A DNA stretch of 64,000 bases, from NCBI GenBank assembly GCA_018398585.1, contig JAGTTD010000019.1, positions 7,539,702 to 7,603,701 of the forward strand, given 5' to 3'. Origin of the DNA: Simmondsia chinensis (taxonomy: Eukaryota; Streptophyta; Magnoliopsida; Caryophyllales; Simmondsiaceae). Every line of letters starts with the position of its first letter. Position 1 is the stretch's first letter. This document shows positions 5,370 through 62,861 of the stretch, piece by piece. The notes below the pieces were generated by a model. The model had not been told where the DNA came from. It did no database searches and saw nothing but the letters and a program-made list of their open reading frames with translations. Both the position numbers and the translations under genes were made by a program.

Positions 5370-5386
5370 TTCATGCCAAGCAATCC

Positions 5387-5638
5387 AACGACAATAGCAG
5401 ACTCCGTGCCTCAAAGACTCCTGCAAAAGCGGGGTTAGGGAGGGGTGGATGTATACAGCCTTATCGCTTCAGGGTGTGACCCTGCCGAGAGGCTGTTTCC
5501 AATGACACTCAACGTTATAGGGTTGTTAACACGAGGACTTCCCAAAATGTCACCCATCCTGATATTACTCTCGTCCAAGCACATTTAACTTCGAAATTCT
5601 AATAGGATCCGGTGCCTTAGTGCCTGGTAAATGAACCC
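5387..5638 (-). mobile_element. 5S rRNA-headed SINE with RTE-type 3' tail, copy 1
   Basis: Read on the minus strand, the element opens with GGGT at 5638. It follows the plant 5S rRNA sequence for about 118 nt (to 5521), including the stretches gcaccggatcc, gaagttaaatgtgcttgg, aggatgggtga and gggaagtcctcgtgtt. The remaining roughly 130 nt match the 3' end of the local RTE LINE: ggaaacagcctctc, a cagggt/accctg hairpin, aaggctgtatacatcc, a gcttttgcaggagt box and a degraded TTG tail. It is flanked by 17-bp TSDs ttcatgccaagcaatcc (5370-5386) and ttcataccaagcagtcc (5639-5655), two mismatches. The retained 5S internal control region would give it a Pol III type 1 promoter. It is not an intact 5S gene because of many substitutions and the fused tail. 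A Cassandra-type TRIM is less likely because there are no LTRs. Confidence 0.88.
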
Positions 5639-16878: not shown

Positions 16879-16979
16879 ACTATTTTCTTTAACTCAACAA
16901 CAACAACAACAACAAACCCAATGCCTCCAAAGGCTCCCGCATAAGCAGGGTCTGGGGGTAGATGTACGCAACCTTCCCT

Positions 16980-17000
16980 CTTCAAAGGGCTACCATGAAG
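16980..17000 (-). promoter_or_regulatory. Conserved hairpin in the RTE 3' UTR
   Basis: The string cttcaaagggctaccatgaag is an imperfect inverted repeat just upstream of the TTG tail. The same position is occupied by cttcagggtagccccctgaag at 32479-32499 and tcatcagggtctcaccctgatga at 61487-61509, and by related stems in the 5S-headed SINEs. It is a candidate recognition signal for the LINE reverse transcriptase. Confidence 0.6.
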
Positions 17001-17295
17001 AGAGGCTGTTTCCGAAGACCCCCAACCTGAGAAGCTGGTCCGCAGCAATTGGCAAAAGACATGGCAGCAAGAGAGCATCAAAGCATGAGTAGGTAAAACA
17101 CACGGCGAGCAAAACAAAAGACTCAAAGCAAGTCATATCAGGTACATATCAATAGATAAAATAAAGATAAGGATAGAGATAAAGGATAGAGATAGAGATC
17201 GAGAAAAAGAATAGTAGGCAAGTAGCAAGTATCAGCTCATGAGAGCCAGAACACAGCCTACGTGCGCCAAGAGGACCTAACACTAGTAAGCTGGA

Positions 17296-19120
17296 CTACC
17301 CTACTCCAACCAGAGCATCTAATACCCCTATGCTAGCCCTCCATTGGGCCCTATCTAAGGCCATCTCCTCCCGAAGGTTTAGGTGGGTGAGGTCTTGTCG
17401 GATCGTCTCAAGCCATCTCTTCTTTGGCTTGCCTCTGCCTCTTCTGCCTAGTATAGTAAGGGGTTGTTCGCATCTCCTTACTAAAGCGTTGTCCGGTCTC
17501 CTTCTAACATGTCCGAACCACCTCAGACGCTGCTCCCTCAATTTATCTTCAATGGAGGCTACGCCCAATTTGCCTCTTATGATATCGTTTCTGATCCTAT
17601 CCTTCCTTGTGTGTCCACAATCCACCTTAGCATTCGCATCTTCACCACCTTCATCTTCTGTGTGTGCTGTTGTTTCATCGCCCTGCACTCCGCCCCATAC
17701 GTCATGGCTGGCCTCACAACCGTCTTATACTATCTTCCCTTTAGCTTCAAGGAGAACTTTCTGTCACAGAGTACCGCGGAGGCCATCCTCCACTTATGCC
17801 ATCCCGCTTTAATCCGGTTGCTGACATCCTCGTCCACATCGCCGTTGTGCTGTATCATGGACCCCAAGTACCTGAATCTCTCCTTCTTCGATATGGCCTC
17901 AGATCCAATCTTAACTTCTTTCTGGCTAGGGGTGGTAGAGGAATCGAACTTGAGTTCCATGTGCTCGGTCTTGGCTCTGCTTAGTCGTAAACCCTTCGAC
18001 TCTAGAACCCCTCTCCACAGTTCCAGCTTCTCATTTATCTCTTCCCGCGACTCCCCCACCAATACTATGTCATCTGCAAAAAACATGCACCAAGGTGCAC
18101 ATCCCTGGATGTGCCTAGTGAGCTCGTCCATAACCAGAATGAACAGATAGGGGCTCAAAGCCAACCCTTGATGTACCCCTACTGTTATCGGGAAAGCGTC
18201 TGTCTCCCCATCCACTGTACGCACCATAGTTTGTGCCTCCTCATACACATCTCTCACGGCTCGGATGTATGGTACGGGGATCCCTTTCCTGTCCAAAACT
18301 CTCCAAAGGACCTCCCTTGGCACTCTATCATATGCCTTCTCTAAATCAATAAAAACCATATGAAGGTCTTTTTGTCTCTCCCTATATTGCTCTATTGTCC
18401 GCCATAGGATGTGGATGGCTTCTATTGTTGATCTCCAGGGCATAAATCTGAACTGTTTCTCGGACACCTCTGTCTGTTGCCTTAGCCTCCTCTCTATGAC
18501 CCGTTCCCACAACTTCAGAGTGTGGCACATTAGTTTGATACCTTGATAGTTGGCGCAATTCTGAATGTCGCCTTTGTTCTTATATATCGGAATCAATGTA
18601 CTCTTCCTCCATTCCTCAGGCATCTTGTCTCCCAGAAGGATTTGGTTAAATAGTTTATTCAGCCAACTGACGCCCTTCTCTCCAAGGCATTTCCATACTT
18701 CTATGGGTATGCCATCTGGGCCAACTGCTTTACCCTTTCCCATGGATCTCAGGGCTTTCTTGGCTTCCTTGGGGCTAATTTGCCTACAGTCACATTGATG
18801 CTCCTCAGATGTTTGAAGATCACCTAAGGATATCTCTGCCCCTCCTTGTTCGTTGAACAACTCGTGGAAGTACGTTTTCCACCTAGCCTTAATTAGATGC
18901 TTGTCCACGAGAACCTGTCCATCTTCCCCTCTTATGCATTGTGCTCTATCCAAGTCCCTAGTCTTCCTTTCTCTAGCTTTGGCGATTCTATATAAGTCCC
19001 TCGCACCCTCCTTGGTCTCCATCCTTTTGTAAAAATCCTCATAAGCTCTAAATTGTGCTTCTCTAACTGCTCACTTCGCTTCTCTCCTGACTTAAAGATA
19101 CCGCTGTCGCTTATCCTCAT
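17296..19120 (-). pseudogene. RTE LINE reverse transcriptase and C-terminal region
   Basis: The frame at 17730-19022 encodes the RT core: GKAVGPDGIPIEVWK, STLIPIYKNKGD, MVFIDLEKAYDRVPR, VGVHQGLALSPYLF and the catalytic FFADDIVLVGE box, then an RT thumb. A stop after KLKGR (17730-17732) and a shift near 17690 break the downstream region, which resumes as [25 protein letters not shown] and [19 protein letters not shown] up to 17296. That conserved basic tail is also what survives in all the truncated copies. The upstream linker at 18932-19120 is in another frame. RT copies the element RNA at the nicked target. Inactive here because of the breaks. Confidence 0.9.
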
Positions 19121-20155
19121 CTCTGCTATGATCCCACTCTTTGAAACAAACTCGTTTTGCCTTAATCTTCCCTTGGACCTCCTCGCTCCACCACCAAGGC
19201 TCTCTGTTGCTCGGTACCCTTCCCTTTGACGTGCCGAGAACTTCCCGTGCCAGTCCTCTCATCTTTTGGGCCAATTCGTTCCACATATGGTTTGTATCTC
19301 CCTCGAAGTCCACCCCGAGCTCAGCCTCCACTCTTTCCCTGTATACCTTATACTTCTCCCCCTTCAACTCCCTCCAATTGGTATACGTATGCGCAGGTTT
19401 GCAGATTCTTTTGGCCCTCTTCTTGACCTTTATATCCGCCCACAGCACCCTATGTTGTGTAGACAGGTCTTCTCCTGAGGTAGCCTTGCAATCCCTGCAG
19501 TCTCTTTGCAGCCTTTTCTTTACTAGTATGTAGTCAATCTGTGTTCTTGTCCCACTGCTTTGGTACGTGATGATGTGTTGCTCACGCTTTCTGAAGAAGG
19601 TGTTGGCCACCGTTAAATCGTATGTAACCACGAAGTCTAGTAGGGCTTTGCCCTCTGCATTCCTGGTTCCAAAACCGAATCCGCCGTGGTGAGAAGCGTA
19701 ACCGTCCTCCGTCGCGCCAACGTGCCCATTGAAATCCCCGCCAATCATCGCTTGTTCGGTTTGGAGTATGCCTGGCATAATTGTGTCTAAGTCCTCCCAG
19801 AATGTTGCCTTCTCATGCTCAGTTAGTCCAGTTTGAGGTGCATAGGCACTGATTACGTTCAATACTTCTCCATCTAGGACCATCTAGATACTTATGATCC
19901 TATCACCAGCTCTTGATACTCCGACAACTTTATCCTTGAGGCTGCTTTCCACAATGATCCCAACTTCATTCCTGCCTCTGACCTTGCCCGCATACCAGAG
20001 CTTATGCCCCAGCACCTCTCTGGCTTTCGCGCCAACCCATTTAGTCTCTTGTAGACAAAGGATGTTGATGTTTCTCTTCATCATCATTTAGGCCACCTCG
20101 AAACTCTTCTTCTTTAGTGTCCTGACATTTAGTGTCCCTAGTCTCAAGTTCCTGT
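19092..20155 (-). pseudogene. RTE LINE endonuclease domain
   Basis: An endonuclease/exonuclease/phosphatase fold read in one frame with stops. Blocks: LRLGTLNVRTL at about 20155-20100; NILCLQETKWVG (the QET motif carries the catalytic Glu); VISAYAPQTG; IGGDFNGHVG (catalytic Asp/Asn); and TQIDYILVKKRL with the terminal DY block at about 19520. It nicks target DNA for target-primed reverse transcription. One stop lies after FEVA near 20090 and one after RIISI near 19885. The coding frame ends at a stop after RQRYL (about 19094), before the frame that links to the reverse transcriptase. Confidence 0.85.
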
Positions 20156-21760: not shown

Positions 21761-22394
21761 CACATAAGGAAAGATAGGATCAAAAATGACGCTATAAGAA
21801 GTAAATTGTGCGTGGTCCAATTGAAGACAAGTAGAGGGAGCAACTTTTGCTAGGGTTTAGGCATGTGAGAAGAAGGCCAACCACTACCCCTGTCAGGAGA
21901 TGCAAACAAATCCACATTACGCACGGGAGGAGATGCAGAGGCAGACCAAAGAAGAGCTGGATGAAGACGATTAGAAACAACCTCACTCTACTAACCCTAA
22001 AAAAGGAGATGGACTTAGACAAAGAGGAGTGCGAGTTAAAATAGGCGTAGCTGACATAGTAGTATAGGATAGAGCAGCACATCAATGCCAGCCCATAGCA
22101 TCCTCGGCTTACATGTTTGCTATGGTTGTCGCCTGCGTGAGCTAGTGTGGCTCTATTGTTGCTTTGTGCTTTGTGTTCGCTACTTGTTGCTTTATTATTT
22201 CCTTTACTTCTTATTTTTAGGGTTAGGGCCCTTGGAGACAACCTCCATTTAAGGTAGCACCCAAAAGGGGTAAGGCTGCATACATTCCCCCCCCCCCCCC
22301 CCCCCCAAAAAAAACCAAAAAAAAGACCCACCCCCTGACTCTACTTCAGCGGAAGCCCTTGTGGCATTAGGAATTTTTTGTTGTTGTTGTATTA
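21761..22394 (+). mobile_element. 5'-truncated RTE LINE copy
   Basis: The TSD is ttagtacttcatta (21747-21760) and ttagtatttcatta (22395-22408), one mismatch. It carries the basic C-terminal block (FRHVRRRPTTTPVRRCKQIHITHG, then GRPKKSWMKTIRNNL) and the 3' UTR down to (TTG)n at about 22380-22390. A C(20)A(8) run at 22287-22314 sits inside the tail. It lies in the opposite orientation to the full-length copy next door. Confidence 0.9.
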
Positions 22395-25909: not shown

Positions 25910-28900
25910 TCATTGCTTACTAGCATTTATGGTCTCCTTCGCATTCTTAACAGCCAACTCAACAAGTTCGGGATTCATAGACTCCAATCCACCAGGTTCC
26001 TGAAGTTTTCTCTCCAGGAACTTTGCCAGTGCAACCGCCTTATTTGTAGCAACCGGTCCACCTGGATGAGCCACCCTGATCCAAGATAGCACGGTATAAA
26101 TAGCGGGAGACCAACCAAATAAACAAGTGCAAGTTTAATGTCAGGGAAGGATACAAAGAGCTTGAATAATCGGTTACTACGAAAGCAGATCAAGGCACAA
26201 CATCAAGAAAGATACGTTCTATTAAGAAGAACAATATCAAATTACAATCACATATACATAGACATTGACACACTTTTGAAGCTAGAAGACCTATTTTTCT
26301 CTTTTCTACCCAAAAAGAATGCCCTCTACAAATTATCAAGCTTATCAAATAATGCAGATTCTTTCTTAAGAGGTTCTGATATACAATAATAATGTGCGTC
26401 ATAAAATTAGCAAGAATTGTTATCTTCTCAAAAGAATACCTAAGCACTTTCCATTGAAGCATATTGCCAAAGTTAAAAGAAGGCAACAAGCTTCAAATTA
26501 GTTCCTCCGTATCGATCAGTGTAAATGCACATCTAGTTAGGGCTGTAAATGAGCCAAGCCAGCTAACGAGTCATTATAAAACTTGAAAGACTCAACTCAT
26601 TCCAAGCTCAAGCAGAGCCGAGCTGAGCTGACTCGTTTAGGTGAAGGAGCAAGGCCGAGCCTGATAAAGCTCGAGCTCATAAGCTCACGAGCCTAAACGA
26701 ACCTATCTTAATATAATGTATAAGCTTAGATTGAGCTTAAATGAGCCTAAAAATCACGAGCTTAGTTCAGACCTCAACAAGCCAGGTTCAAACTCAGCCA
26801 AACTGAGCAGGGCCTAAGCCTATAAGGAGTAGAGCTTGAGCTTTGCGATCTCCAAGCCAAGCTATATGCAAACAACCCAAGCCTCGAGCCCGAAAAGCTT
26901 GGACTTGGCTTGGCTCAAATACATCCCTAGTTCCACTACTAATGCTCCCCTTAATACAAATCAACAACACAAAACTCTTAACTCTATTGCATTCCCAGAT
27001 TTGCAGAGAAATCAACACTACTAAGCCGGTATTTTTCTTCTCCCATTCTTCACCTTTCAATTTCATTCCAAATTCAATTAGAAATCACGAAACTCAAACT
27101 CCAATACCTTCCACTAATTTTTTTCCCGAAAAAGGTAACATCAACTTTCAATTTCATCAAACAACCTCTAAACTATCAATTTATGCCGAGTAAACACCTT
27201 ATTGCAACTTGAGTAAACACCTTATTGCAACTTTCTCCAATTTTTCGACCCCTCCAGTAGCCAAAATCACATCAACATTTCTGTTAGCACAATACAGCGC
27301 AGAAATTAAACGTGACTAATACGCACGTGTAAAAGTTCACACTTACAAAATTCAAGGATAACGTTAATCACAATAACGGTGGCAGGAATATAACATATAG
27401 TAGATGATAAGGTACAATCACTAATTTGAAAGTTAAAAGTAACAAATTTAACAAAATATAGGATATGAATATTTAATTTAGTTGTCATTATTTTTTATTA
27501 TCATTTCTTTTTTAAATAGAAAACATACAAATATGTGTAATAATACATGCATTATACAAATAGCATCAAGTAATCGCATATTTTACCATATTATTGGTAG
27601 TAATAAGTAAATTGCCCTTTTTAAACGGCAAAGTACAAATATGTGTAGCGAATTTACTAACAGAGATTCAGATCACTTTTAATTACTTCAAATTAGACGC
27701 TTCTATACGTCACGAGAAAATGGAACATGAAGAGACACGAGATGACACCATCACATTAAAGTTTAAATATTTTATTTACCCTAGTGGTGCAGTAAAAGAA
27801 TGGTAGCTCAGATGGGGACAGGTAGTGGTGGCCAACGGGCTGAGCCCGGTCTACCCGGCTCTTAGAGCCGTTGGAGCAACGGCTCTTTTGTTAAGAGCCG
27901 TTGGTAGTGGCTCCCAATCCAAAAAAAAAAATTTATATTTTTTTTTCTATAAATACCTAATCCTCCCCAACCATTTCCTCACCAAATCTTCAATCCTCTC
28001 TTCTCTCTCTATACATTCATCATCTCCCATCTTCTTCAACTTTGCTAATTGCAACATTGTGCTCTAAAGTTCGAAGTTCACAAAGTGTTTGCCTGAAGTT
28101 CGAATTTCATTGTTCTCTCGTTTCGGTAATTTTAGTATCGCAATTTTATTTGGTTCGCATTTTTAGTTATTTAATTTGCATTACTACTTGCATTTTATAA
28201 ATACTAATCACTTATACTAATATGGCACACAACTCTTCATCATCCTCTGGAGCCGGTCGTGCTAGTTCTAACTCTTCTCGGCCACCCAGAATCCCTAAAA
28301 GGAGTAGAATTGTCATAGTTAATACGGAAGAACAAGCTTTTATACAACCAGGCCCATCACCCCCACACACTGATGATAGCATAGATTGGGACTTTGAACA
28401 ACAAGATTATCATGAGTCGGGTGGTGGGGGTAGAGACTCACAAACTGATGAGGAACCCACGCCCACCACCGAAACCCAGCCTGAAAGTAGTACCTCTACT
28501 AGTAGGCATACAACTAGTGGGGTATGGAATCACTTTACCCTCAATAGGACAACTAATAAAGCAACTTGTAAATTATGTGACCCACCTAGATCTTTTAGCC
28601 ATCAACCTGGCAGTGGGACAGGCACATTAAGCAGACATATACTTAGATGCCACCCCGAGCAATGCCCAGATAAGAGCCAACAACGTTTAGTACAGCAAGT
28701 GACCGATGCACTTGCTAATTTTAGGTTCTCTCAAGAGGGCAACCGAAAGGGGCTAGCTAAATATATAATTTTGGGTGAAAGGCCTTTCAATGCAGGCGAA
28801 AACCCATATTTCGTCGACTACCTCCAACAATGGGTGAACCCCGCCATTGTGAGGGTTCCTCGGAACACCGTAAAGCGGGACGCTTTTACGGAGTACCACA

Positions 28901-31335
28901 GGATGAAAGCTGAGATCTTAACACTTTTTGCGACGAACACGAGCATGTTCTCGTTGACGTTGGACATATGAAAGTCAAAACCCGGCCAACCTTATATGTG
29001 CATAACGGCACACTGGATCGATGACTCCTACATCCTCCAAAAAAGAATAATTCATTTTGGTATTTTAGATTGCCCCCACACTGCCGAGATAATTACGGGT
29101 GCGATTATGTTGGCAATCCGCAACTGGGGCATAGAGCGACGTATCTTCAGTATTACGTTCGACAATGTTACCAATAACACTGCATCTGTTACACATTTAA
29201 TTAGGCACATGAGACCCATGTTAGGTGGGAAGTGTTTCCATATTCGTTGCATTTGTCACATTTTGCATTTAATGGTAATGGATGGTTTAGAGCTTATAAA
29301 CGCATCCCTTAACACCTTAAGATCCGTAATAATATCTATTAAATCATCTGGCACTAGAAAAAAAAGATTTAGAAATTTATGTAGGTTGCATGGCATAGAT
29401 AATAAACAATTCAAATTAGACTCCCAAACTAGATGGTCATTTACGGTAGAAATGTTGGAGCGCATTCTACCATATAAAGACGTTCTGATGGAATTCGCAC
29501 AGGACAATCGTTCAGAATGGAGCGATTACAACCTGAACGGTATACATTGGCTGACAATATATGAAATTTGTAAATTTTTTTGCATGTTTAAAGAGGCCAC
29601 GACATTTTTTTCGAGTTGCTACTATCCGACCATACCTCAAGCAATATCAAGATTGCTTGATATTATAAATTGGATGGCGGATAATGAATCCAACCCCATT
29701 TTGTTCGAATCGATTAAGGCAATGAAAGAAAAGTTTGCTAAATATTATTCTAAACTACCCCTTACATACTGCTTAACAACTATTTTAGATCCTCGTTGTA
29801 AACGCGGGAGTTTAAACTTGTTTTGCCAACATTTTTTCAAATATTTGTATCCTAGTCTCAATATCGACACTTTCATTGCCGAAGTCGATAACGACTTGCA
29901 CAATTTATTTTCCCACTATTCCCGGAAATTAGCGTCCAATAATCCATATCCTAGTACTGCTGCAGTAGGATCTTCCACATCTAGTGGAAGTAGTTCACAC
30001 ACGTCATATTCGTGGAAGCTGTTGGAGCAATTTACGCCCACAGTAGCCCCCACGTCATGTGATGAGCTAGATTATTATTTGCGGACACCGTTGCTCCATA
30101 TTTTCGCGACGCCGGCCAACCAGCATTTTGACCTTTTACAATAGTGGAACACAAACCAAGCCCAGTATCCCGTGCTTTCCACCATGGCACGTGATAGACT
30201 AAGTTGTCCGGTGTCTTCAATAGCATCGGAGTGTGCTTTCAATCTTGGTGGCAGGTTGCTTGGAACGAAGAGGGTGAAGCTATCACAGTCAAGCTTGGAG
30301 ATGTCCGTATGCTTGAGGGATTAGCTGCTAGCTGAGGCAAGGAATCAACAGAAAATGAAGCTGGATTCATCAAGCGATGAAGAAGACGACCGCACCACCG
30401 ATACGTCAAACGATGGCACAGCAACCCCCCATGCGACTGATATCAACACTTTTGTATGTCAATTATTTACTTTTAAATATTTACGCCAAAAGACGACCGC
30501 ACCCCCCATACGTCAAACTTTATATTTTTTAATAAACAAATTTGTACTTTTAAATATTAGGCTCCAACTACGTTATATTTGTACTTGTTACGTTATTTAT
30601 TTACCATTATTTTTTTTGATCAGATATATACCATTATTTATTATTACTTATTGTATATTTTATTTTATTACATATATTTAGCATTATTAGTGCTTGGGAA
30701 AAAATGTATTTGTATATCATATTATTTATCAATAAATTATAATAATTTTAGTACAAAATAAATTTGTATTATTTAAATTTTGCTTCTTTTTTGTAAAGCT
30801 GACGAAAGCGGGCCCACCCGGGCCCACCCAGCCTGGCCCGCACTGTAGCTGGCCCGGGCCAGGGGCCAGGCCGGGTCTGGCGCTGGAGGCTGTGGCCCCG
30901 GCCCGTGGCCACCTCTAGGGACAGGTGTGCCCAACACACGCGCGAGTTGTGGTTCGAATCCCCTCTCATGCCTTTTCGTGTCATTTTTTTTCGTGGTTTG
31001 TAGCTTTTTCCCTTCAAATTAGACCTCCGCAACACATTATATAATGTTCACAAAATTTTGCACATTGATGAAGTCAAAAAAGCTGGACGAAATCCAATTA
31101 GAAAACCTAATCAAAACTGATCAGATCTTATAGGTGAATTTGATCAAACAACAAGATAAGACAATCAAATTAATTGGAAACAACAATTCAAGTAATCTGT
31201 ATCGCTATGATAATAATCAAAGAAATAGTACCGATGATGAGGACGAGAAGATCGTGGAGGAAGAAGAGGAGCGAACTTGCTACCGCGAAGAGCTTTCCTC
31301 TCTTCTTCCGTCAGTTCCTCCACTGAATTCACCAT
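25910..31335 (-). CDS. Conserved small plant protein, two exons (89 aa)
   Basis: Exon 1 is 31232-31335 (ATG at 31335, MVNSVEELTEEERKALRGSK..., ending RSSRPHH plus CG). Exon 2 is 25910-26075 (G then VAHPGGPVATNKAVALAKFL...ETINASKQ and TGA). The donor CG|GTACTA and acceptor atcag|GGTGG join in frame to give a complete 89-residue protein with an acidic/basic N-terminus, a proline-containing linker and a helical Leu/Ala-rich C-terminus. I recognise the combination ELTEEERKALRGSKFAPLP / HPGGPLATNKA as a conserved small plant protein but do not know its function. No signal peptide or membrane segment is seen. The roughly 5.2 kb intron contains a hAT element (27823-30917), a hAT-like MITE (26538-26929) and a 23-bp tandem duplication. 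An RTE copy begins about 220 bp upstream of the ATG. Both exons are intact, so the gene may be functional. Confidence 0.82.
26538..26929. mobile_element. hAT-like MITE in the intron of the small-protein gene
   Basis: The left end TAGGGCTGTAAATGAGCCAA pairs with the complement of the right end, TAGGGATGTATTTGAGCCAA. The interior repeats gagctt/aagctc motifs. TAGGG-type TIRs suggest hAT, but the flanking 8-mers catctagt and gttccact do not match, so the TSD is unconfirmed. Confidence 0.62.
27188..27233 (+). repeat. Perfect 23-bp tandem duplication
   Basis: The unit gagtaaacaccttattgcaactt occurs twice head to tail inside the intron. It is a recent local duplication by its identity. Confidence 0.9.
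27781..27822 (+). other. tRNA-like (SINE) head, left part, split by hAT
   Basis: ggtagctcagatgggg at 27802-27817 resembles a Pol III A box region. Removing the hAT element and one copy of the 8-bp TSD joins it to the B-box-bearing part at 30926, giving an A-to-B spacing of about 47 nt as in tRNA-derived SINEs. Confidence 0.4.
27823..30917 (+). mobile_element. hAT transposon with transposase relic
   Basis: The left end TAGTGGTGGCCAACGGGC pairs with the complement of the right end, TAGAGGTGGCCACGGGCC. The 8-bp TSD gggacagg is perfect (27815-27822 and 30918-30925). The 3095-bp element carries one transposase gene on the plus strand, broken by nonsense codons. It sits in the intron of the minus-strand small-protein gene and interrupts a tRNA-like sequence. 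Confidence 0.94.
28222..30450 (+). pseudogene. hAT transposase with BED zinc finger
   Basis: The ATG at 28222 opens a 249-residue segment. It contains a BED finger: VWNHFTLNR, then CKLC, then GTGTLSRHILRCH (Cys-Cys-His-His pattern). The frame continues past a TGA at 28969-28971 into 28996-30144 with the hAT core (TAHWIDDSYILQKRII, FDNVTNNTASV, RCICHILHLMV, LDSQTRWSFT). After a TAG at 30142-30144 comes the C-terminal dimerisation region YPVLSTMARDRLSC...ASECAFNLGGRL, with another stop near 30320. At the first two stops, and probably the third, the family normally has Trp. The enzyme would cut and paste the element. This copy cannot make a full-length protein. Confidence 0.88.
30926..30992 (+). 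other. tRNA-like (SINE) body, right part, with B box
   Basis: gtggttcgaatcccctctc at about 30949-30967 contains a good B box (GGTTCGAATCC) and is followed by a T-run near 30983. Together with 27781-27822 it forms an ancient Pol III-type retroposon or tRNA-related sequence. The rest of the SINE is undefined. Confidence 0.45.
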
Positions 31336-31556: not shown

Positions 31557-32582
31557 CCAAGACCGAGCACATGGAACTCAAGTTCGATCCCTCTGCCACA
31601 CATAGCTAGGAAGACGTCAAGATTGGATCTGAGGCCATATCAAAGAAGGAGAGCTTCGGGTACTTGGGGTCCATGATACAACACAACGATGAAATTGACG
31701 AGGATGTCAATAACCGGATTAAAGCGGGATGGCATAACTGGAGGGTGGCCTCCGCGGTACTTTGTGATAGAAAGTTCCCCTTGAAGCTAAAGGGAAAATA
31801 CTATAAGACGGTTGTGAGGCCAGCCATGACGTATGAGGCGGAGTGCAAGGCAGTGAAACAACAACACACGTAAAAGATGAAGGTGGCGGAAATACGAATA
31901 CTGAGGTGGATGTGCGGACACACAAGAAAAGATAGGATCAGAAACGACGTTATAAGAGCCAAATTAGGCATAGCCTCCATTGAAGATAAATTGAGGAGCA
32001 ACGTTTGAGGTGGTTCGGACATGTTAGAAGGAGACCGGACAACGCTCCAGTAAGGAGATGCGAACAGCCCCATACTACACTAGGCAGGAGAGGAAGAGGC
32101 AGGCTAAAGAAGAGATGGCTGGAGACGATCCGACTGGACCTCACCCACACTAAACCTTCGGGAGGAGATGGCCTTAGAAAGGGCCCAATGGAGGGCTAGC
32201 ATAGAGGTTATAGATGCTCCAGTTGGAGGAGGGTAGTCTAGCTTACTAGTTCTAGGCCTTGACATCCTCTTGGCGCACTTAGGTTATGTACTTGTTCTCA
32301 TGAGTTAATACTTGCCTACTTATTCTTTGATTTCTGCTTGATGTGGCTTGCTTTGAGTTTGTTGTTTTGCTCGCCGTGTGTTTTGCCCTACTCATGCTTT
32401 GATGCTCTCTTGTTGCCAGATCACATGCCCTATCTACGGACCAACTTCTCAGGCTGAGGGTCCTCGGAAACAACATCTCTTCAGGGTAGCCCCCTGAAGG
32501 GGGAAGGCTAAGTACATCTACCCTCCCAGAACCTGCTTTTGCGGGAGCCTTTGGAGGCACTGAATTTTTTGTTATTGTTGTT
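31557..32582 (+). mobile_element. 5'-truncated RTE LINE copy upstream of the small-protein gene
   Basis: The TSD is ggttaggagcatgg (31543-31556) and ggttcggagtatgg (32583-32596), two mismatches in 14. Begins inside the RT thumb (AKTEHMELKFD-type block), continues with [47 protein letters not shown] and the basic tail, then the 3' UTR with hairpin 32479-32499 and a degenerate TTG tail at 32572-32582. Frames are broken. It is divergently arranged relative to the host gene, whose ATG is at 31335. Confidence 0.9.
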
Positions 32583-32596
32583 GGTTCGGAGTATGG

Positions 32597-40335: not shown

Positions 40336-40376
<41 letters not shown>

Positions 40377-46429: not shown

Positions 46430-47235
46430 TGGCGACAACAATTAAATCTGAGTTAGAGAACTTCGGAGGTCAAGGAAGCTTCAGTTTGTGGCAAGTATGT
46501 GTTAAAGGGCTCCTGACCCAGAATGGCTCGAAGAAAGCACTGGATGGAAAAGAGAAGAAATCGAAAAACATGACAGAGGCGTAGTGGGAAGAATTGGATG
46601 ATAAGGCTCTCACGGCGATACAGATGTGTTTAACAGATGATGTACTGACAGAAGTCTAGGAGATGAAAACCGCCAAGGAGTTGTGGGAGAAGTTGCAAGA
46701 GATGTTTTGTCACAAATCGATCTCCAATAAACTCGCAGTAAAGCACCAATTATTCACGTTTCGTATGACGGAAGGTACATCACTTAAAAACCATCTTAGT
46801 GAATTTAATTCTATAATTCAAGAATTAAAAGAATTGCATGACGCCCCTAAGGACGAAGATCAGGCCATGATATTGTTGTGTTCTCTCTCTAATACTTATA
46901 AAGGCTTTGTAGAAAGCATGATATATGGTGGTAGGCCTACTATCACTGTCGATGAGGTTAAAAGAAACCTAGTAAGTAAAGAGATAGTTGATAGAGAATT
47001 GTCTGACTCTAGGAATAACTCTGGTAATGGGTTATTTGTGAGAGGTAGGATTGAAACTAGAGGGTCTAAAGGTGGAAAGAAGTCTAGGTCTAAATCTAGA
47101 CATAAGAACTTGTCATGTAATTTTTCTCACAAAAAGGGGCACATAAAGAAAAACTATTATAAGCTTAAGAATAAGCAGAGAGATGATAACAGGAATGACC
47201 AGTTGAAGATGAGGGAGATGTTGATGTTCTATTAG
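46430..47235 (+). pseudogene. Copia gag relic
   Basis: Starts MATTIKSELENFGGQGSFSL and contains the gag UBN2-type core (KTAKELWEKLQEMFC, KHQLFTFRMTEG, DEDQAMILLCSLSNTY). The zinc knuckle has lost Cys residues: it reads CNFSHKKGHIKKNYY where the family has CxxC...GHxxxxC. Stops fall after NMTEA (46582) and DDVLTEV (46658). Confidence 0.85.
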
Positions 47236-47239
47236 TAAC

Positions 47240-50200
47240 CAAGTCACGGGCCAGGTCTAGAGATAAGTGGATCATGGATTCGGGTTGTTCTTACCACGTT
47301 TGTCCTAATAGAAACTGGTTCGCCACTTATAAGTCAATTCAGGGTGGAGTAGTCATGATCGGCAATGATGCCGCATGTAAGGTGATGGGTGTTGGAACAG
47401 TTCGTGTGAAGATGTTTGATGGTACGGTTATTACACTTAGCGACGTGCGACACGTCTGAGATTTGAAAAAGAACCTTATCTCTTTAGGTACCCTTGAGTC
47501 CAATGGGTACAAGTACACAACTGAAGGTAGAGCTATAAGGGTCAGTAAAGGTGCACTGGTTGTGATGAAGGGTAGGAACTTTATACAAGCTTGTAAGTTC
47601 TACCGTGACAGGTTTAGTGGCAGTTTCTACATCGTCCTTAACAGATGTAGAGATCACTAAGATGTGGCACATGAGATTGGGCCATATGTTTGATAAAGGG
47701 CTGTTAAAGTTGAGTAAGAGGGGTTTGTTATGTGGTCAGTCAACTGGACTGATGGATTTCTGTGAGCACTGTGTATATGGGAAGCAGAAGAGAGTCAGCT
47801 CCAAGCAGGCAGTGCATCAGACTAAAGGAACGTTGGACTATATTCATTCTGATTTATGGGGACCATCCAGAGTTGCTTCCAAAGGAGGTTCCAGGTATTT
47901 GCTAACATTCACTGATGATTATTCACGTAAAATTTGGGTCTATTTTCTTAAGCAAAACAAAGTTTATGAAGCCTTCAAGAAGTGGAAGGTGCTCCTTAAA
48001 AAACAGACAGGAAAGCCAATCAAGAGGTTGAGGACAGACAATGGACTTGAATTTGTTGAAGGAGATTTCACAACGTCTTGTGAGAATCAAGGCATTGTCA
48101 GACACAGGACATGTACAGGTCGACCTCAACAGAATGGAGTGGCAGAAAGACTAAACATGACGTTACTAGAGAAGGCTCAATATATGCTTTCAAATGCAGG
48201 TTTAGGGAGAGAATTTTGGGCAGAGGTAGTTAACTTGGCATGTTACTTAGTAAACCGATCACCTCATTCATCGCTTCAAATGAAGACTCTAGAAGAGGTA
48301 TGGTCTGGTTCTCCTGCTGATTATTCTCATTTGAAAATATTTGGTTGTCCTGCTTATGCTTATGTTAAGGATGGAAAGCTAGAGCCTAGGGCCAAGAAGT
48401 GTATCTTTCTTGGTTATACGTAAGGTGTGAAGGGATATCGTTTATGGGATCCAAAATGCCATAAATTTCTGACCAATAAAGATGTGACATTCAATGAGTC
48501 CGTTCTGGTACATCTACCACACACGCCCTCCACAATTCAAGATTCAGTTCAGGCAGAGAAGCCTGATGATTGTCAGATACAGTCTGAAAGTTCAAATCAG
48601 CAGCAGGTAGTTCAGTTTGAGAGTATGCAGGCACCTCCAGTACAGGTTTCTAATGAGACCGATTAAACAGAAACAGGCCAACGGGTTAAACAACATACAA
48701 TTACAGGGGGTAGGTAAAGAAGACAGATTAGGCCACCACAGAGACATGGGTATGAGGAGATGATAGCCTATGCCCTCACTACAGCTGAATTAGTGGAAGA
48801 TAGTGAACCATCTTCATATTCAGAGGCTGTATAGAAATCTTACACAGAGAAGTGGCTTGTTGAAATGAATGAAGAGATGGAGTCACTTCAGAAGAACCAG
48901 ACTTGGCAGCTAGTCAAGCCTCAAACAGGAAAAAGGGTAATCGAGTGCAAATGGGTCTTCAAACGAAAAGAAGGCATTCCTGGAGTGGAAGATGCAAGGT
49001 ACAAGGCTCACTTAGTAGCTAAAGGCTATAGTCAAGTACACGGTGTTGATTTTCATGATATTTTCTCACTTGTTGTTAGACATAGTTCCATACGAGCGAT
49101 ACTTGCTTTAGTAGCTATGTATGATTTCGAGCTTGAGCAGTTAGATGTGAAAACTGCATTTTTCCATGGTGAGCTAGAGGAGAGTATTTACATGCATTAG
49201 CCTGAGGGTTTCATTGTAGAAGGAAAAGAAGACCATGTTTGTTTGTTGAAGAGATCTTTATATGGTTTGAGGCAGTCACCTAGGCAGTGGTATAAGAGAT
49301 TTGACCTGTTTATGACTAACCATGGGTTCTTCAGGAGCAAGTATGATAGCTGTGCGTATTTCAGAAAGACAGATTCAGGCTCATTTGTTTATCTTTTGTT
49401 ATACGTTGATGACATGTTAATTGCAACTAAAGACATGACAGATGTTGATGATTTGAAAACAATGTTGAAAAGCGAGTTCGAGATGAAAGACTTAGGAGCA
49501 GCTAAAAAGATTCTTGGCATGGAGATCAGTAGGGACCGAAACGCTGGAAAGTTGTACTTGTCTCAGGACAAGTACATTGAGAAGGTTCTGGATTAATTTC
49601 ACATGAAGGATGCTAAGCCAGTTAACACTCCCTTAGCAGCTCACTTCAGGCTTTCAGTATTGGATTCACCTTAGACAGAGAAGGATGTCAGGTACATGTT
49701 TCAGGTCCCTTATTCTAGTGTTGTGGGTAGTATCATGTATGCTATGGTATGTACTTGTCCAGATATTGCTTATGCTGTGAGTAAAGTGAGTAGGTACATG
49801 GCGAATGCAGGAAAGGAACATTGGCAAGCTGTTAAATGGATTCTCAAGTACTTACATGACACTTCTGATGTTTGTTTGGAATTTGGAAAGAGTAAATGCT
49901 GCTTAGTAGGGTATGATGACTCTGATTATGGTGGAAATCTTGATAAGAGGAAGTCTACTTCTGGTTATGTGTTCTGTTTGGGAGACAGCGCTATTAGTTG
50001 GAGAGCTTGTCTACAATCAGTTACTGCACAGTCGACTCCCGAGGCCAAGTATATGGCAGTTACAGAAGCATTTAAGGAAGCCGTTTGGTTGAAAGATTTG
50101 GTTAGTGAGCTCAGTGTTGATCAGGGCACTATTGGGGTCTACTGTGATAGTCAATCAGCGATTCATCTAGCTAAAGATCAGATGACACATCATGACAAGA

Positions 50201-50376
50201 CGAAGCACATTGATGTCAAGCATCATTTTATTAGAGATCTAACTGATAAGCGTCAGGTGGAGCTGAAAAAGATTGGTACTGAAGACAATCCAACAGACAT
50301 GTTCACTAAAGTTTTACCTGGGAGGAAATTCGAGCATTGCTCGAACTTAATTGGTCTTTCGATTTCAGTATGCTAG
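47240..50376 (+). pseudogene. Copia pol relic: protease, integrase, RT, RNase H
   Basis: Protease: WIMDSGCSYHVCPNR (DSG). Integrase: the HHCC region [17 protein letters not shown]...[11 protein letters not shown], then D ([11 protein letters not shown]), D ([10 protein letters not shown]) and E ([12 protein letters not shown]). RT: WQLVKPQTGKRVIECKWVFK and catalytic LLYVDDMLIA at about 49400-49430. RNase H: YDDSDYGGNLDKRKSTSGYV and the terminal HIDVKHHFIRD block. Stops at 47458, 48421, 48664, 48832, 49198, 49594 and 49672 split the frame. Several, for example in MH*PEGF, look like CAG to TAG. Confidence 0.92.
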
Positions 50377-55896: not shown

Positions 55897-58800
55897 AATC
55901 CTTGTCCTCAAGGATTGAAGTGCAGAAATTGTTTGCAAATGAAAGTCCAATCTTCCCAAGTGACGGCGTCTTCTCCCATGTTTTTTCATCGGACTTGAAC
56001 TTGCTTGATTCTCCTTTTGTTGCGGGTTACGGTCCGTTGATTGAGAATGTCTTGTGGAGTGACTTCGGTTTCGTCGTTTTGGTCAATCTGCGGAAGGTCC
56101 GAAGTGATGCGTATGTTGTCTCCTACCTTTTTCTTCAATCGGGAAACATGGAAGACTGGATGGATTTTGGAACCTTCGGGGAGCTCAAGTTTGTAGGCCA
56201 CTTCCCCGATCCGGGCTTCAATTCGGTATGGTCCATAGTATCGAGCGGCCAGCTTTAAGTTTCTTTGTAATGCGACGGAGGTTTGTCGATATGGCTGCAG
56301 CTTAAGGTACACCCAGTCACCTACTTCGAATACTCTCTCGGTCCTTCGATGGTCGGCTTGCTGTTTGTAGCGGTGTTGAGCCTCTTTTAAGTTCTCCTTT
56401 AATAGACCAATTAAGTTCTGTCTTTCATTGACAAAGTCCTCCACATCCCCGGATGTAGAGATGCAAGGGACGTCGAGGGCGAGGAACTTTGGTTCATAAC
56501 CGTAGAGAGCGTGGAACGGAGTCCCCTTCAATGATGAGTGATAGTGGGTGTTGTACCAGAACTCTGCCAGAGGAAGCCATGGAGACCACTGTTTCGGCTT
56601 ATGGAGGGCCATGGCTCGAAGATAACTCTCAAGACACTGATTGACCCGTTCGGTTTGTCCGTCGGATTGTGGATGATAGGCACTACTCATTCTGAGCGCG
56701 ACCCCAGCTAGGCGCATGAGCTCCTTCCAAAAGAGGCTCTGGAAGGATGCATCTCGGTCTGAAATAATATCCTTGGGCAACCCATGAAGTCGGTAGACCT
56801 GATCCACGAACAGTTGGGCTACCTTGCTTGCGGTGTACGCATGTGTCAAGGCGATGAAGTGAGCATACTTGGTAAGTCGGTCCACAACCACCATAATGAC
56901 ATCCTTACCCCCGAACTTGGGCAACCCTTTGATGAAGTCCATACTAATACTTTCCCATGCTTGGTTGGGCACGGGTAGTGGTTGTAGGAGTCCCGGGTAA
57001 GCCACATTCTCGTGCTTGGTGCGTTGGCAAGTATCACACTTCTTTACCCATTCTCGGACACTGTTTTTGAGGTTGGGCCAATAAAACATGCGTTTGACCC
57101 TCATTAAGGTGCCAAAGGATCCTGAGTGACCCCCCGTGGGAGAGTCATGAAGTGCTTGTAGGATCTTTTCTCTCATTCCTCCATCCTTCCCCACATAAAG
57201 CCTCCCTTTGTATCGGAGGAGACCCCCTTCGAAGGAGTAAGGCTTGTTGCTTGTTGGGTCAAGAACAAGTTGCTCTATTCGTTCGGTGGTATGGGCCTTA
57301 TCTTCGTAGCTTTGGGAGAGCTCTTGCATCCAAAGGGGAACCGAAGTGGTCATGAAGGCGCAGGTGGCAATAGCTTCGTCTTCATCCGGTCTTGAGAGTG
57401 CATCGGCAGCTCGGTTTTCGGCTCCCTTGCGGTAAAGAATGCTATAATGTAGGCCCATCATTTTCGACATCCCTTTGAGCTGTAATTGTGTGGTGATTTT
57501 TTGCTCGAGTAGGTGACGGAGGCTGGCATGGTCGGTCTTGATGATGAAATGATGGTCCATCAAATAATGTCTCCATTTTTCAACTGCCATGAGTACTGCA
57601 AGGAGCTCTTTCTCATAGATCGAAAGCCCTAAGTGGCGTGGGCTAAGGGCCTTACTGAGGTAGGTGAGGGGTCGGCCTTCTTGTGATAGGACTGCTCCAA
57701 TCCCAACCCCGCAAGCATCGGTCTCAAGGACAAAGGGCTTGGAGAAGTCGGGAAGTGCAAGGACTGGGGCGGTTGTCATGGCCTCCTTCAAGGCCTCGAA
57801 TGCTTGATCGGCTTCCTCATTCCAATGAAACCCCCCCTTCTTGAGAAGGCTGGTCAACGGCTTGCTCATGGTTCCATACCCACGGATGAACTTCCGGTAG
57901 TACCCGGTGAGTCCCAATAACCCTCGGAGGCTCTTGACATTCTTCGGTCTTGGCCACTTCTTCATGGCCTCGATCTTGCCTTCTTCGGTTGCCACCCCTT
58001 CTCTTGAGATTACGTGTCCCAAGTATTCTACCCGATCTTGGCCGAAAGTACACTTGCTCCATTTAGCATAGAGGTGGTGCATACGAAGGATCTCAAGCAC
58101 TTCGGTCAAGTGCCTAAGATGTGCGGAAAGGCTCGGGCTATAGACCAAGATGTCGTCAAAGAATACGAGCACAAACTTGCGTAGATATGGCTCGAAGACT
58201 TCATTCATCAAGGCTTGGAAGGAGGCGGGGGCGTTAGTGAGTCCGAAAGGCATGACACGGAACTCATAATGCCCTTGGTGGGTCCGGAAGGCGGCCTTAT
58301 GCTGGTCTTCTTTACATACTCGAATTTGATGATAACCGGCGCGGAGATCGATCTTGGAAAAAATGGAAGACCCTTTAAGCTCATCTAGTAAATCATCAAT
58401 GACCGGTATCGGAAATTTATCCTTGATGGTTATGTTGTTGAGTTGCCGGTAGTCTACGCAAAAACGGTATGTCCCATCCTTCTTGCGGACCAAGAGTACC
58501 GGAGAAGCAAATGGGCTCCGGCTTGGTTGGATGATGGAGGTTTCCAACATCTCCTTGACTTGTCTTTCAATCTCGTTCTTTTGCCCTTGCGGATAGCGGT
58601 AGGGCCTTATGTTCACGGGCTTGGCTTCGGGCAAGGTGGGAATGCGGTGATCATGTGAGCGAGGAGGAGGAAGAGCCTTCGGTTCTTCAAAAACATCTTG
58701 ATAGCGGTCGAGGATGCGTTCTATCTCCGGATGAATGATGGACTTGGAAACTTCCTCGGCGGTAGCCATAAAGAGGTGACCCACCACATGTCCGGCCTTC

Positions 58801-59405
58801 TTGAAGAGCTTGGTGAGACTTTTACCCGAAATTGATTGTAAGGCGGCTTTCTCGGATGTACCTTGTAACCGGACTGCCTTACCCTCCTTGAAGCAAGCGA
58901 ACTTGAGGTTGGTGAAATCAAATGTTACGGGCCCATATCGTTGGAGCCAATCAACCCCAAGGACCATGTCACTGCCCCGGAGTTCCAATACCCTCAAGTC
59001 ATCAACGAACGTTGTGCCTTGGACTTTCCACCTCACGCCCGGGCATTTCTGATAACTAACGAGGCTCTCCCCGTTTGCCACCGTCACGGTCATGACGACG
59101 GTGGGTACGGTTTCGAGCTGAAGCTCCCGGACCACCTTAGCATCTAGGAAACTATTAGTGGACCCGCTATCAATCAAGATATTTACCTCTCGTTTCTTAA
59201 TGTGGCCCTTCAATCTCAAGGTGTTGTGCGTGACTCGGCCTGAAAGTGCATTTAGAGAAATCTCCATAGCTCTGTTGTCTTCTCCTTCGGTTTGCTCTTC
59301 ACCCGCAACTTCCTCTTCTTGGGCTTCATCTTCGACCTCTTCTCCCTCCATACTTTGTAAGGCCTTCTTACAAATGTGCCCCGGAAAGTATTTTTCATGG
59401 CACTT
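55897..59405 (-). pseudogene. Gypsy pol: zinc knuckle, protease, RT, RNase H, integrase, chromodomain
   Basis: A zinc-knuckle-like CYKCHEKYFPGHIC lies just upstream of an ATG at 59351, from which 1121 residues are open. Positions in that frame: protease DSG 61-63; RT from about 240 with YRFCVDYRQLNN 295-306 and catalytic FFDD 397-400; RNase H Asp 545 (LETDACGVG); integrase HHCC about 735-775; catalytic Asp 805 (SMDF), Asp 865 (ISDRD) and Glu 901 (GQTE); then a chromodomain start IHPVFHVSRLKK...QDILNQRTV. A TGA at 55986 ends the frame where a Trp is expected. The same frame then continues with DAVTWEDWTF, the chromodomain end. Otherwise remarkably intact, so a fairly young copy. Confidence 0.93.
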
Positions 59406-60483
59406 GTAACATTGGCCCGGCTCTCGTCTTGTGAGCTGGAACCTGCGTTGCTGCTGCCGCTGGTTTTGGACACGGACCCTTGGGATTGGGCCCAGCCCTG
59501 GGGCGCTGCTGAGGACACTGGTCTGCTGCTGGGGACAGGTCGGGTGCTGAAACTGGGTCAGTTGACAGGTCGGGCAGCATTCCTAATTTCGGCACCGCAA
59601 CTTCTTGGAGTTTGGCCTGTTCAAAGGCCATGCTAAGCTCGGTTGGCCGGCTTGCCTTGACGGATGCTCGAATGGCGGGCTTAAGCCCACTAATGAAGCT
59701 CGAGACAAAGTACGCCTCGCTCAATGTCAGGTGATGAATAAGCATCCAACTCCTTAACTCTTCAAATTTCAAAATATAATCTTCAACCGGCCCGTTTTGT
59801 GACATCTTACTAAACTCTTCCACTATGCCTTGGAGTGATCGGTCTCCAAAACGTTTGCACAATTCGTCCATGAAAAAGGCCCACGTCATGTGAGGGTGCC
59901 TAAGTTCGAGCCCGTGGAACCAAATGTCCCCGTGTTCATGAAGGTGGCTTGAAGCATATTCCACCCACTCATTTTCGGGCACTTGGTACCAACGGAAGTA
60001 TTTAAGGCACTTACGGATCCAAGCTCTTGGGTTCGTACCTTCAAACTTTGGGATCTCGAGCTTGGGTGTATGGGAGGTCAAGGTGCGGTTGCTTCCATGG
60101 CTTCGGCTGAAGTCCCCTTCATCCGTGACCCGCGGTGGGGCATGGTTATTTCTGAGCTCTGAGGAGTGTGTTGGAGGCGATAGGATCCCATCACCGGTTC
60201 TCGGGTACGTGCCTGACCCTCCTGGTGCGGTATTGTCACGGGCACCTACAGGTGGTGCCACGGTCTCCACTTCAGTTCTCTTCTCCTGGGCCTTCACCAA
60301 CCGTCCCATGGCATCGGTTAGGGCCCTAAGGTCAGCCTTCACGTCTGCCATGTCTGCTTTTATCTCGATGTTGTTTCGGTTTTGTTGTTCCTCTAGTCGG
60401 TCCATCCTCCCCTCCAAGCGGACCAACCGTTCATCAACGGCGTCGACCCACTTGTTGGTATCGGTGTGACCGGTTGAGGACAT
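59395..60483 (-). pseudogene. Gypsy gag
   Basis: ATG at 60483. A 362-residue frame with an N-terminal coiled-coil-like segment (VDERLVRLEGRMDRLEEQQN), then the retrotransposon gag core (PKLEIPKFEGTNPRAWIRKC, WYQVPENEWVEYASSHL, FGDRSLQGIVEEFSKM, LTLSEAYFVSSFISGLKP). It ends in a Pro/Ala/Gln-rich linker whose frame differs by one from the zinc knuckle and pol, with the shift somewhere at about 59430-59540. Either a mutation or the site of a programmed shift; a mutation is more likely, since relatives encode gag-pol in one frame. Confidence 0.88.
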
Positions 60484-60602
60484 GCTTCTTGTTATAGCCG
60501 TTTTTTTTTTTTTTTTTTTTGATTCTGTTTAACCGGATGAGAAAAAAAATTTAAGGATAGGATAAGCCCTCTCTGGATCGGAAGATGGCTCTGATACCAC
60601 TT

Positions 60603-60900: not shown

Positions 60901-61588
60901 TCGTTCTAATACCACAAGGATGCTTGTATGCATGGTTGTATAGACGCAGTTCTGGCGTCTGTTGGTCGCTTAGTGTTCCTAGGGTTGAATAGAGACAATT
61001 CGACAGATGAGAAGAGAGGAAGAGGCCGGCCAAAGAAGAGTTGGATGGAGACCCATCATTGCCCCTGTAAGGAGATGCAAACAACTCTATATTACTGACA
61101 AGAAGAGAGGAAGAGGCCGGCCAAAGAAGAGTTGGACGAAGACAATTGACCTCGCCTACCTCAACCTAAATGAAGAGATGGCCCTATATAGAGCTCACTC
61201 TAGGATTAGTATAGGGGTAACCAATTTAGCGAGGTATGAGCATCAAGCACCCATAAGCTAGTTCTAGTACCACGAGGCTGCTTGTATGCTTGTTTATGCT
61301 TCTTTACTTTTACCTTTTGCTCTAGCTGCTATACTCCCATGCATACATGCTTACATGTTTATTTGCTTATATGCTTATATGCTTACATGCATACATGCTT
61401 CGCATGATCTCTATGCCTTACATGCTCTTTATATAGGCTCTTCATAACTATCATCTATCAGGTTGAGGGTCCTCGGAAACAGTCTCTCATCAGGGTCTCA
61501 CCCTGATGAGGTAAGGCTGCGTACATCCTACCCCTCCCAGACCTTGCGCTAGCGGGAGTCCTTGCGGCACTGGGATTGTTGTTGTTGT
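60901..61588 (+). mobile_element. RTE LINE fragment, 3' part (inside an inverted segment)
   Basis: Contains two copies of a gagaggaagaggccggccaa box (about 61013-61032 and 61104-61123), a cccctgtaaggagatgcaaa block, NLNEEMALYRAHSR, and the 3' UTR with a near-perfect hairpin at 61487-61509 and (TTG)n at 61577-61587. Followed by agtcgtcgccacatga, the complement of the TSD seen at 62560-62577. On re-inversion it is contiguous with the fragment at 61971-62559. It shows a partial tandem duplication of the C-terminal region. Confidence 0.85.
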
Positions 61589-61604
61589 AGTCGTCGCCAC
61601 ATGA

Positions 61605-62559: not shown

Positions 62560-62577
62560 TTTCATGTGGCGACGACT

Positions 62578-62843
62578 TTTTTTTGGGCAACATTCCCAGT
62601 GCCCAAAGGGTTCCCGCCTAAGCAGGGTCTTGTTTTTTTTTGGGGGGGGGGGGGGGGGGTGGTTTGTATGCATCCTTCCCCCTTCAGGATGGTACCCTGA
62701 AGAGAGGCTGTTTCCGAGTACCCCTAACCTAAGGGGTGAGGACTTCCCAAGCGGTCACCCATCCTGGTACTACTCTCGCCCATGCACCCTTAACTTCAGA
62801 GTTCTAATGGGATTCGTTGTCAGGTTGTTGGTACCCTCTTTGG
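62578..62843 (-). mobile_element. 5S rRNA-headed SINE with RTE-type 3' tail, copy 2
   Basis: The 18-bp TSD tttcatgtggcgacgact (62560-62577) and tttcatgtagcgacgact (62844-62861) has one mismatch. On the minus strand the head (62843 to about 62732) follows 5S rRNA: tcccattagaactctgaag, ttaagggtgcatgggcgag, aggatgggtgacc and gggaagtcctc, so the 5S internal control region is well kept. The first roughly 30 nt are diverged. The tail has cggaaacagcctctcttcag, the hairpin (cttcagggtaccatcctgaag), an inserted C(18)A(9)-type run, agaccctgcttaggcggga and gcactgggaatgttg, then a short A tail. Confidence 0.9.
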
Positions 62844-62861
62844 TTTCATGTAGCGACGACT

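Follow-up and report, generated by a model that had tools for sequence, protein, structure and literature searches.

The window analysed here, a 64-kb stretch of Simmondsia chinensis DNA, raises the question of what kind of element joins a 5S rRNA-like sequence to the 3′ end of a LINE in a plant. A 2022 review (PMC9033089) treats plant SINEs as deriving from tRNAs, both in its available text and in its classification table. A preliminary description of the locus had proposed a SINE3-type element at positions 5387-5638, with a 5S-like head starting at +1, a tail matching a local RTE LINE, and a 17-bp target-site duplication. Based on the analyses presented below, we consider that the element very probably belongs to a high-copy family of 5S SINEs, which would be transcribed by RNA polymerase III (Pol III) and mobilised by an RTE LINE.

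The element, hereafter copy 1, was correctly delimited in the preliminary description and lies on the minus strand (Table 1). It begins with GGGTTCATTTACC at position 5638; the 5S-like head continues to approximately position 5520 and is followed by an RTE-homologous segment. The head matches the Rfam 5S rRNA family RF00001 over model positions 1-120 (5636-5524, minus strand) with 47.9 bits and an E value of 7.3e-07, above the gathering score of 38, which upholds the proposal of a 5S-like head from +1. The heads of both window copies match the full model and comprise box A, the intermediate element and box C, at the positions that we take these boxes to occupy in the element. A chance likeness of copy 1 to 5S rRNA was also considered, and is excluded by the RF00001 match together with the genome-wide junction census described below. 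The head is of 5S type and not of the tRNA type found in the TS and Au SINEs; an ARAGORN scan found zero tRNAs in the 64-kb window, and no tRNA head was seen at three other places bearing the tail. The proposed fusion to a local RTE tail was likewise confirmed, since three RTE-type 3′ ends of the window match the copy 1 tail at 72-76% identity (E 7e-22 to 3e-13). Regarding the duplication, the 17-bp repeat is present, and because of its two mismatches it scores 9, under our threshold of 11. Taken alone, it is only moderately convincing, and it is the duplications across the family that decide this point.

Table 1. Features of the 64-kb window, with positions counted from its first nucleotide.
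Feature	Position	Strand	Evidence or remarks
5S-SINE copy 1, subfamily A, complete, 252 bp	5387..5638	-	Rfam match, tail homology, genome copies
Copy 1, 5S rRNA-like head, from 5S +1	5520..5638	-	RF00001 match at 5636-5524
Copy 1, RTE-derived tail ending in a decayed TTG repeat	5387..5515	-	Homology to RTE 3′ ends
Copy 1, target-site duplication, 5′ side, GGACTGCTTGGTATGAA	5639..5655	-	Sequence comparison
Copy 1, target-site duplication, 3′ side, GGATTGCTTGGCATGAA, 2 mismatches	5370..5386	-	Sequence comparison
3′ end of the RTE copy at 17296..19883	16901..17031	-	Copy 1 tail match at 17026-16901, 72%
RTE LINE copy, endonuclease and reverse transcriptase in separate open frames	17296..19883	-	PF14529 and PF00078
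hAT-like coding region	28201-30144		
RTE 3′ end	32448..32584	+	Copy 1 tail match at 32455-32584, 75%
copia-like coding region	46660-50376		
Ty3/gypsy-like coding region	55986-60528		
RTE-like 3′ end, second type, ending in (TTG)n	61455..61588	+	Copy 1 tail match, 76%
Copy 2, target-site duplication, 3′ side, AGTCGTCGCCACATGAAA	62560..62577	-	Sequence comparison
5S-SINE copy 2, subfamily B	62578..62844	-	RF00001 match at 62844-62726, 64.6 bits; genome matches
Copy 2, target-site duplication, 5′ side, AGTCGTCGCTACATGAAA, 18 bp, 1 mismatch	62844..62861	-	Sequence comparison

Both parents of the element were sought in the host genome, an 831-Mb assembly of 35 contigs in which the window belongs to contig C12. 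On contig C8, host 5S genes form two tandem arrays with units of approximately 435 and 421 bp, and one more gene is located on C29 (47 matches scored out of 51,838 first-look candidates). Between positions 10 and 113, the consensus head of subfamily A, to which copy 1 belongs, shares 98 of 104 nucleotides (94%) with host 5S genes, or 96 of 104 when compared with one array unit; its outer arms are altered relative to host 5S. At locus L031 (C8 4685437-4688555), the 5S spacers contain seven occurrences of a 29-nt segment similar to the 3′ portion of 5S (83%). As further observations on the sequences searched, an uninterrupted run of 39 C occupies positions 40336-40374 of the window, and the nuclear assembly contains 27 matK-family matches over many contigs, with many decayed plastid-derived matK fragments. 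Two such fragments, joined into one query, match Simmondsia chinensis best (86%), followed at 74% by other members of the Caryophyllales, the order that includes Simmondsiaceae (best 120 of 3,201 hits), which supports jojoba as the host; RT and Gypsy proteins were uninformative in this respect.

The second parent is an RTE LINE. Compared with a consensus built from 25 host RTE 3′ ends, the tail of subfamily A is identical at 122 of 133 positions, TTG repeat included, and in global alignments the A and B tails reach 93% and 92% identity to this consensus, respectively, which identifies the 3′ tail as LINE-derived. Subfamily A has both its 3′ end and its TTG repeat in common with the RTE; subfamily B has the tail in common and ends in a T-run. 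In the element, a complete 5S rRNA head is joined to the final ~125 nt of an RTE LINE. In subfamily A, approximately 4 nt separate the end of the head, near position 119, from the start of the RTE match at position 124. Subfamilies A and B join RTE sequence at nearly one point, which suggests a single founding 5S/RTE fusion. Judging from the shared tail, the RTE type represented by the 17296..19883 copy is the likely helper of the SINE. Of the 25 RTE loci, L067 alone is closer to the B tail than to the A tail, and RTEs of the type found at L067 and at 22226-22314 of the window are possibly a second partner. At both places, the RTE 3′ end contains a poly-C followed by a poly-A stretch, a feature also seen in many B copies. 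An RTE copy ending in the T-run of subfamily B was not encountered.

Used as a query against the host genome, copy 1 gave 41 matches (40 scored out of 5,898 first-look candidates), 40 of which, copy 1 itself included, have 84-100% identity and mostly extend over the full query; the other one has 73% identity. With copy 2 as the query, we obtained 40 other matches with 80-91% identity. Thirty subfamily A copies, placed on one strand and including the window copy, align from end to end, starting at 5S +1 and ending in (TTG)n, and their flanks are unlike. The number of copies was assessed with a 30-nt pattern across the 5S/RTE junction, allowing up to three mismatches and taking the reversed pattern as control. 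With the subfamily A pattern, 5,492 matches were obtained (2,839 forward and 2,653 reverse), and with that of subfamily B, 10,417 (5,187 and 5,230), compared with 0 for either reversed pattern. The resulting 15,909 matches are a lower bound, since decayed junctions escape the patterns, and they dispose of the possibility, raised in the preliminary description against its own reading, that the junction exists only at the loci first noticed. Compared in sense orientation with the 25 fetched RTE 3′ ends, the A and B patterns show at least 8 and at least 12 mismatches, respectively; compared with a 3.1-kb fragment of the 5S array of the host, they show 15 and 14. Given these distances for the A pattern, neither parent should yield its census matches. 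A search of viral contigs with the two patterns gave 0 matches. In 183.5 kb of fetched locus DNA, which is a biased sample, we found 18 further head-bearing copies, some of them partial, which hints at more old copies in the genome.

These counts bear on the possibility that the copies are independent 5S retropseudogenes, or chimeras produced by RTE template switching, that never formed a self-perpetuating family. An RTE could capture 5S RNA, and the founder of the family probably arose in this manner. As an account of all copies, nevertheless, this explanation is extremely improbable, as one 30-nt junction recurs thousands of times and changes specific to each subfamily, in the arms and in the tail, recur among the aligned copies.

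Target-site duplications were evaluated with a single scoring rule and a threshold of 11, in search windows that differed slightly between sets. At this threshold, duplications of 11-25 bp are present in 58 of 80 copies, compared with 0 of 555 mismatched flank draws, these controls being random re-pairings of flanks in which some pairs were drawn repeatedly. By set, the counts are 21/30 for subfamily A (controls 0/142), 16/21 for subfamily B (controls 0/159), 13/19 for subfamily B copies with the exact junction (controls 0/141), and 8/10 for full-length copies encountered incidentally in flanking DNA (controls 0/113). The other 22 of the 80 copies, copy 1 among them, have no duplication at threshold level. 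The copies are dispersed, have a common structure and carry individual target-site duplications, as SINEs do. The support that the preliminary description had called for, namely many copies of ~250 bp with one 5S/RTE junction point and varied duplications, was thus found.

The alternative that copies were spread by segmental or satellite duplication, instead of retroposition, would account for loci L009 and L017, whose flanks are alike (99.3% upstream and 98.7% downstream), and which reduce the subfamily A count to 20 of 29 independent loci, since they constitute one segmental pair. This is, however, the sole such pair among the 30 loci, 21 of which have a duplication at threshold, and we regard this alternative as having hardly any chance of explaining the family. 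The likeness of the L009 and L017 flanks suggests an exchange between chromosome ends. The two loci are located near 1.04 Mb and 41.88 Mb of the 42.2-Mb contig C34, close to its opposite ends.

Flanks also bear on Cassandra-type TRIMs, in which the 5S segment lies within an LTR and is moved by the LTR-retrotransposon machinery. In the available text of PMC10853983 and PMC10886601, Cassandra is the known 5S-bearing element of plants, and its 5S segment carries a Pol III promoter, as would that of the present element. Had the copies been of this type, as the preliminary description had cautioned, the 5S segment should be found inside LTRs. For 30 subfamily A loci, we compared 298 bp upstream and 300 bp downstream, the latter beginning 30 bp past the match, and found no consistent sequence beside the element, only one duplicate pair and scattered repeats at seven other loci. 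LTRs are absent from the flanks of these 30 copies, the duplications of 11-25 bp are not the short LTR-type duplication of Cassandra, and the element runs from 5S +1 to an RTE 3′ end. The copies examined are therefore not Cassandra, an explanation to which we assign almost no probability. The retroposed 5S SINE is the reading that we develop below.

The family comprises at least two subfamilies with unlike 5′ arms and 3′ ends. Subfamily B was defined by aligning 20 of the copy 2 matches with the window copy; its 5′ arm reads ACCAAAGAGGG and its 3′ arm is shortened. Among those 20 matches, three (L077, L078 and L080), designated B′, retain (T/G)TGTTGCACCC ahead of the RTE part; B′ keeps the 5S 3′ arm that is lost in B and may represent an intermediate. 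Of 20 exact-junction B loci retrieved, 19 were used; their consensus ends in TGTTCC followed by a T-run, not in (TTG)n, and their median divergence from it is 5.7%, leaving out the pattern and the C-run. With respect to copy 2, the A at position 62844 may be part of the element rather than of the duplication. The sequence AGTCGTCGCYACATGA was observed three times in the window (0.03 expected), at 61589-61604 on the plus strand and at 62562-62577 and 62846-62861 on the minus strand; these sites correspond to the copy 2 duplication plus an inverted occurrence that directly adjoins an RTE copy at its 3′ end.

In the mechanism that we propose, Pol III would start at 5S +1 by means of the internal promoter (box A, intermediate element and box C), and the T-run of subfamily B would act as a Pol III terminator. 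Having an RTE-like 3′ end, the SINE RNA would be treated by the RTE endonuclease and reverse transcriptase as their own, and target-primed reverse transcription would then insert the SINE copy, duplicating 11-25 bp of the target. Mobilisation by the partner RTE is inferred here from the shared tail. A different possibility is that the head no longer drives transcription, the template being a Pol II read-through RNA, or that few live masters are responsible for the copies. This would agree with the divergence of the A copies from their consensus (1.7-12.9%, chiefly C-to-T and G-to-A) and with the conservation of the promoter boxes, whose non-CpG identity among copies is 0.933, compared with 0.953, 0.953 and 0.943 elsewhere; the boxes are thus not conserved beyond the remainder of the element, and promoter conservation adds no support to a Pol III-driven head. 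Against it, the A and B consensus sequences have an identical 82-nt stretch spanning the promoter boxes, and the 5′ end of A stays at 5S +1, so that we consider this possibility unlikely and a Pol III-transcribed SINE the better reading.

RNA folding was evaluated for a closing stem between the arms of the head. Folded alone, the A head forms a GGGUU/AACCC stem, part of which is inherited from 5S; once tail sequence is included, no closing stem between the head arms appears in the minimum-energy fold of any of A, B and B′. When the 5′ arms were shuffled, the closing-stem test gave p values of 0.083 for A, 0.0012 for B and 0.041 for B′; with random arms, the values were 0.32, 0.041 and 0.17, respectively. 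The altered outer arms of 5S helix I can still pair partly, which the shuffle test supports for B, and the predicted covariation of the closing stem is suggestive only. A predicted tail hairpin, CAGGGU-loop-ACCCUG, is readable in the aligned sequences of A, B and the RTE at 61588. A more ambitious proposal would be that of a large undescribed lineage of plant 5S SINEs in which the closing stem was kept by matched arm changes, the 3′ end changed, with a T-run terminated by Pol III replacing the TTG repeat of RTE type, and the lineage possibly provided the Cassandra promoter; we hold this combination to be unlikely. The matched arms that the proposal would require, GGGUU/AACCC in A, and in B ACC-AAA-GAGGG pairing with CCCUC-A-GGU across the 5S/RTE junction, are modelled pairings.

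BovB is a member of the RTE clade, and DeuSINEs have a central Deu domain. Among the systems with which the family can be compared is Ped-1 of the springhare, listed in Table 1 of Ohshima 2013, in its available part, as a 5S head with a BovB tail, and thus also a 5S rRNA head with the tail of an RTE-clade LINE. Likened here by description, Ped-1 differs in being a rodent element with a BovB partner, whereas the present family has a plant RTE partner and subfamilies of its own. According to the same source, as far as available, the SINE3/DeuSINEs (zebrafish, AmnSINE1) also combine a 5S-derived head with a LINE-derived tail, but their tails are of the CR1 clade. With a gap of only ~4 nt between the head and the RTE match, and the Deu domain judged by description, there is no space for a central domain; given also the RTE tail, the family is not of the fish SINE3/DeuSINE lineage. 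Hence, the name SINE3-type used in the preliminary description holds for the 5S-derived promoter type and not for the lineage.

Among plants, the available text of Ohshima 2013 states that RTE LINEs of flowering plants terminate in a (TTG)n or a (TTGATG)n repeat; it gives only three plant SINE/LINE pairs, of which the tobacco TS SINE is the one tied to an RTE, having ~100 nt in common with a potato RTE. TS resembles the present element in this ~100-nt tail and in the TTG repeat matching an RTE LINE, and differs in its tRNA-related head. The Au SINE, whose LINE partner is unidentified in that text, ends in a T-run, as does subfamily B; it is classed as tRNA-type in the available part of PMC9033089, in contrast to the 5S head found here.

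With 5S SINEs known in animals, what would be new is a plant 5S SINE with an RTE tail, together with a second subfamily that ends differently; no plant 5S SINE was found in the available text of the literature searched, a search with Repbase, SINEBase and most subscription journals outside its scope, so priority is not established. As far as its available text shows, Kojima 2024 (PMC10886601) characterises animal SINE3 and cites the speculation that Cassandra came from SINE3, and a 2010 paper mentions 5S-homologous SINE3 sequences “including plants”, with the Cassandra paper as its source. One possible reason for such families being missed is the Rfam filter of AnnoSINE, which, according to the available text of PMC8825457, discards any candidate that is almost the same as an Rfam RNA (E 1e-15 by default); as scored by Rfam, window copies 1 and 2 would not reach this cut-off. 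A 5S-headed family of such size widens the range of promoter types of plant SINEs, and its 5S-plus-RTE combination parallels that of the springhare Ped-1. Additionally, the idea that Cassandra originated as a 5S SINE inserted in an LTR becomes open to sequence tests.
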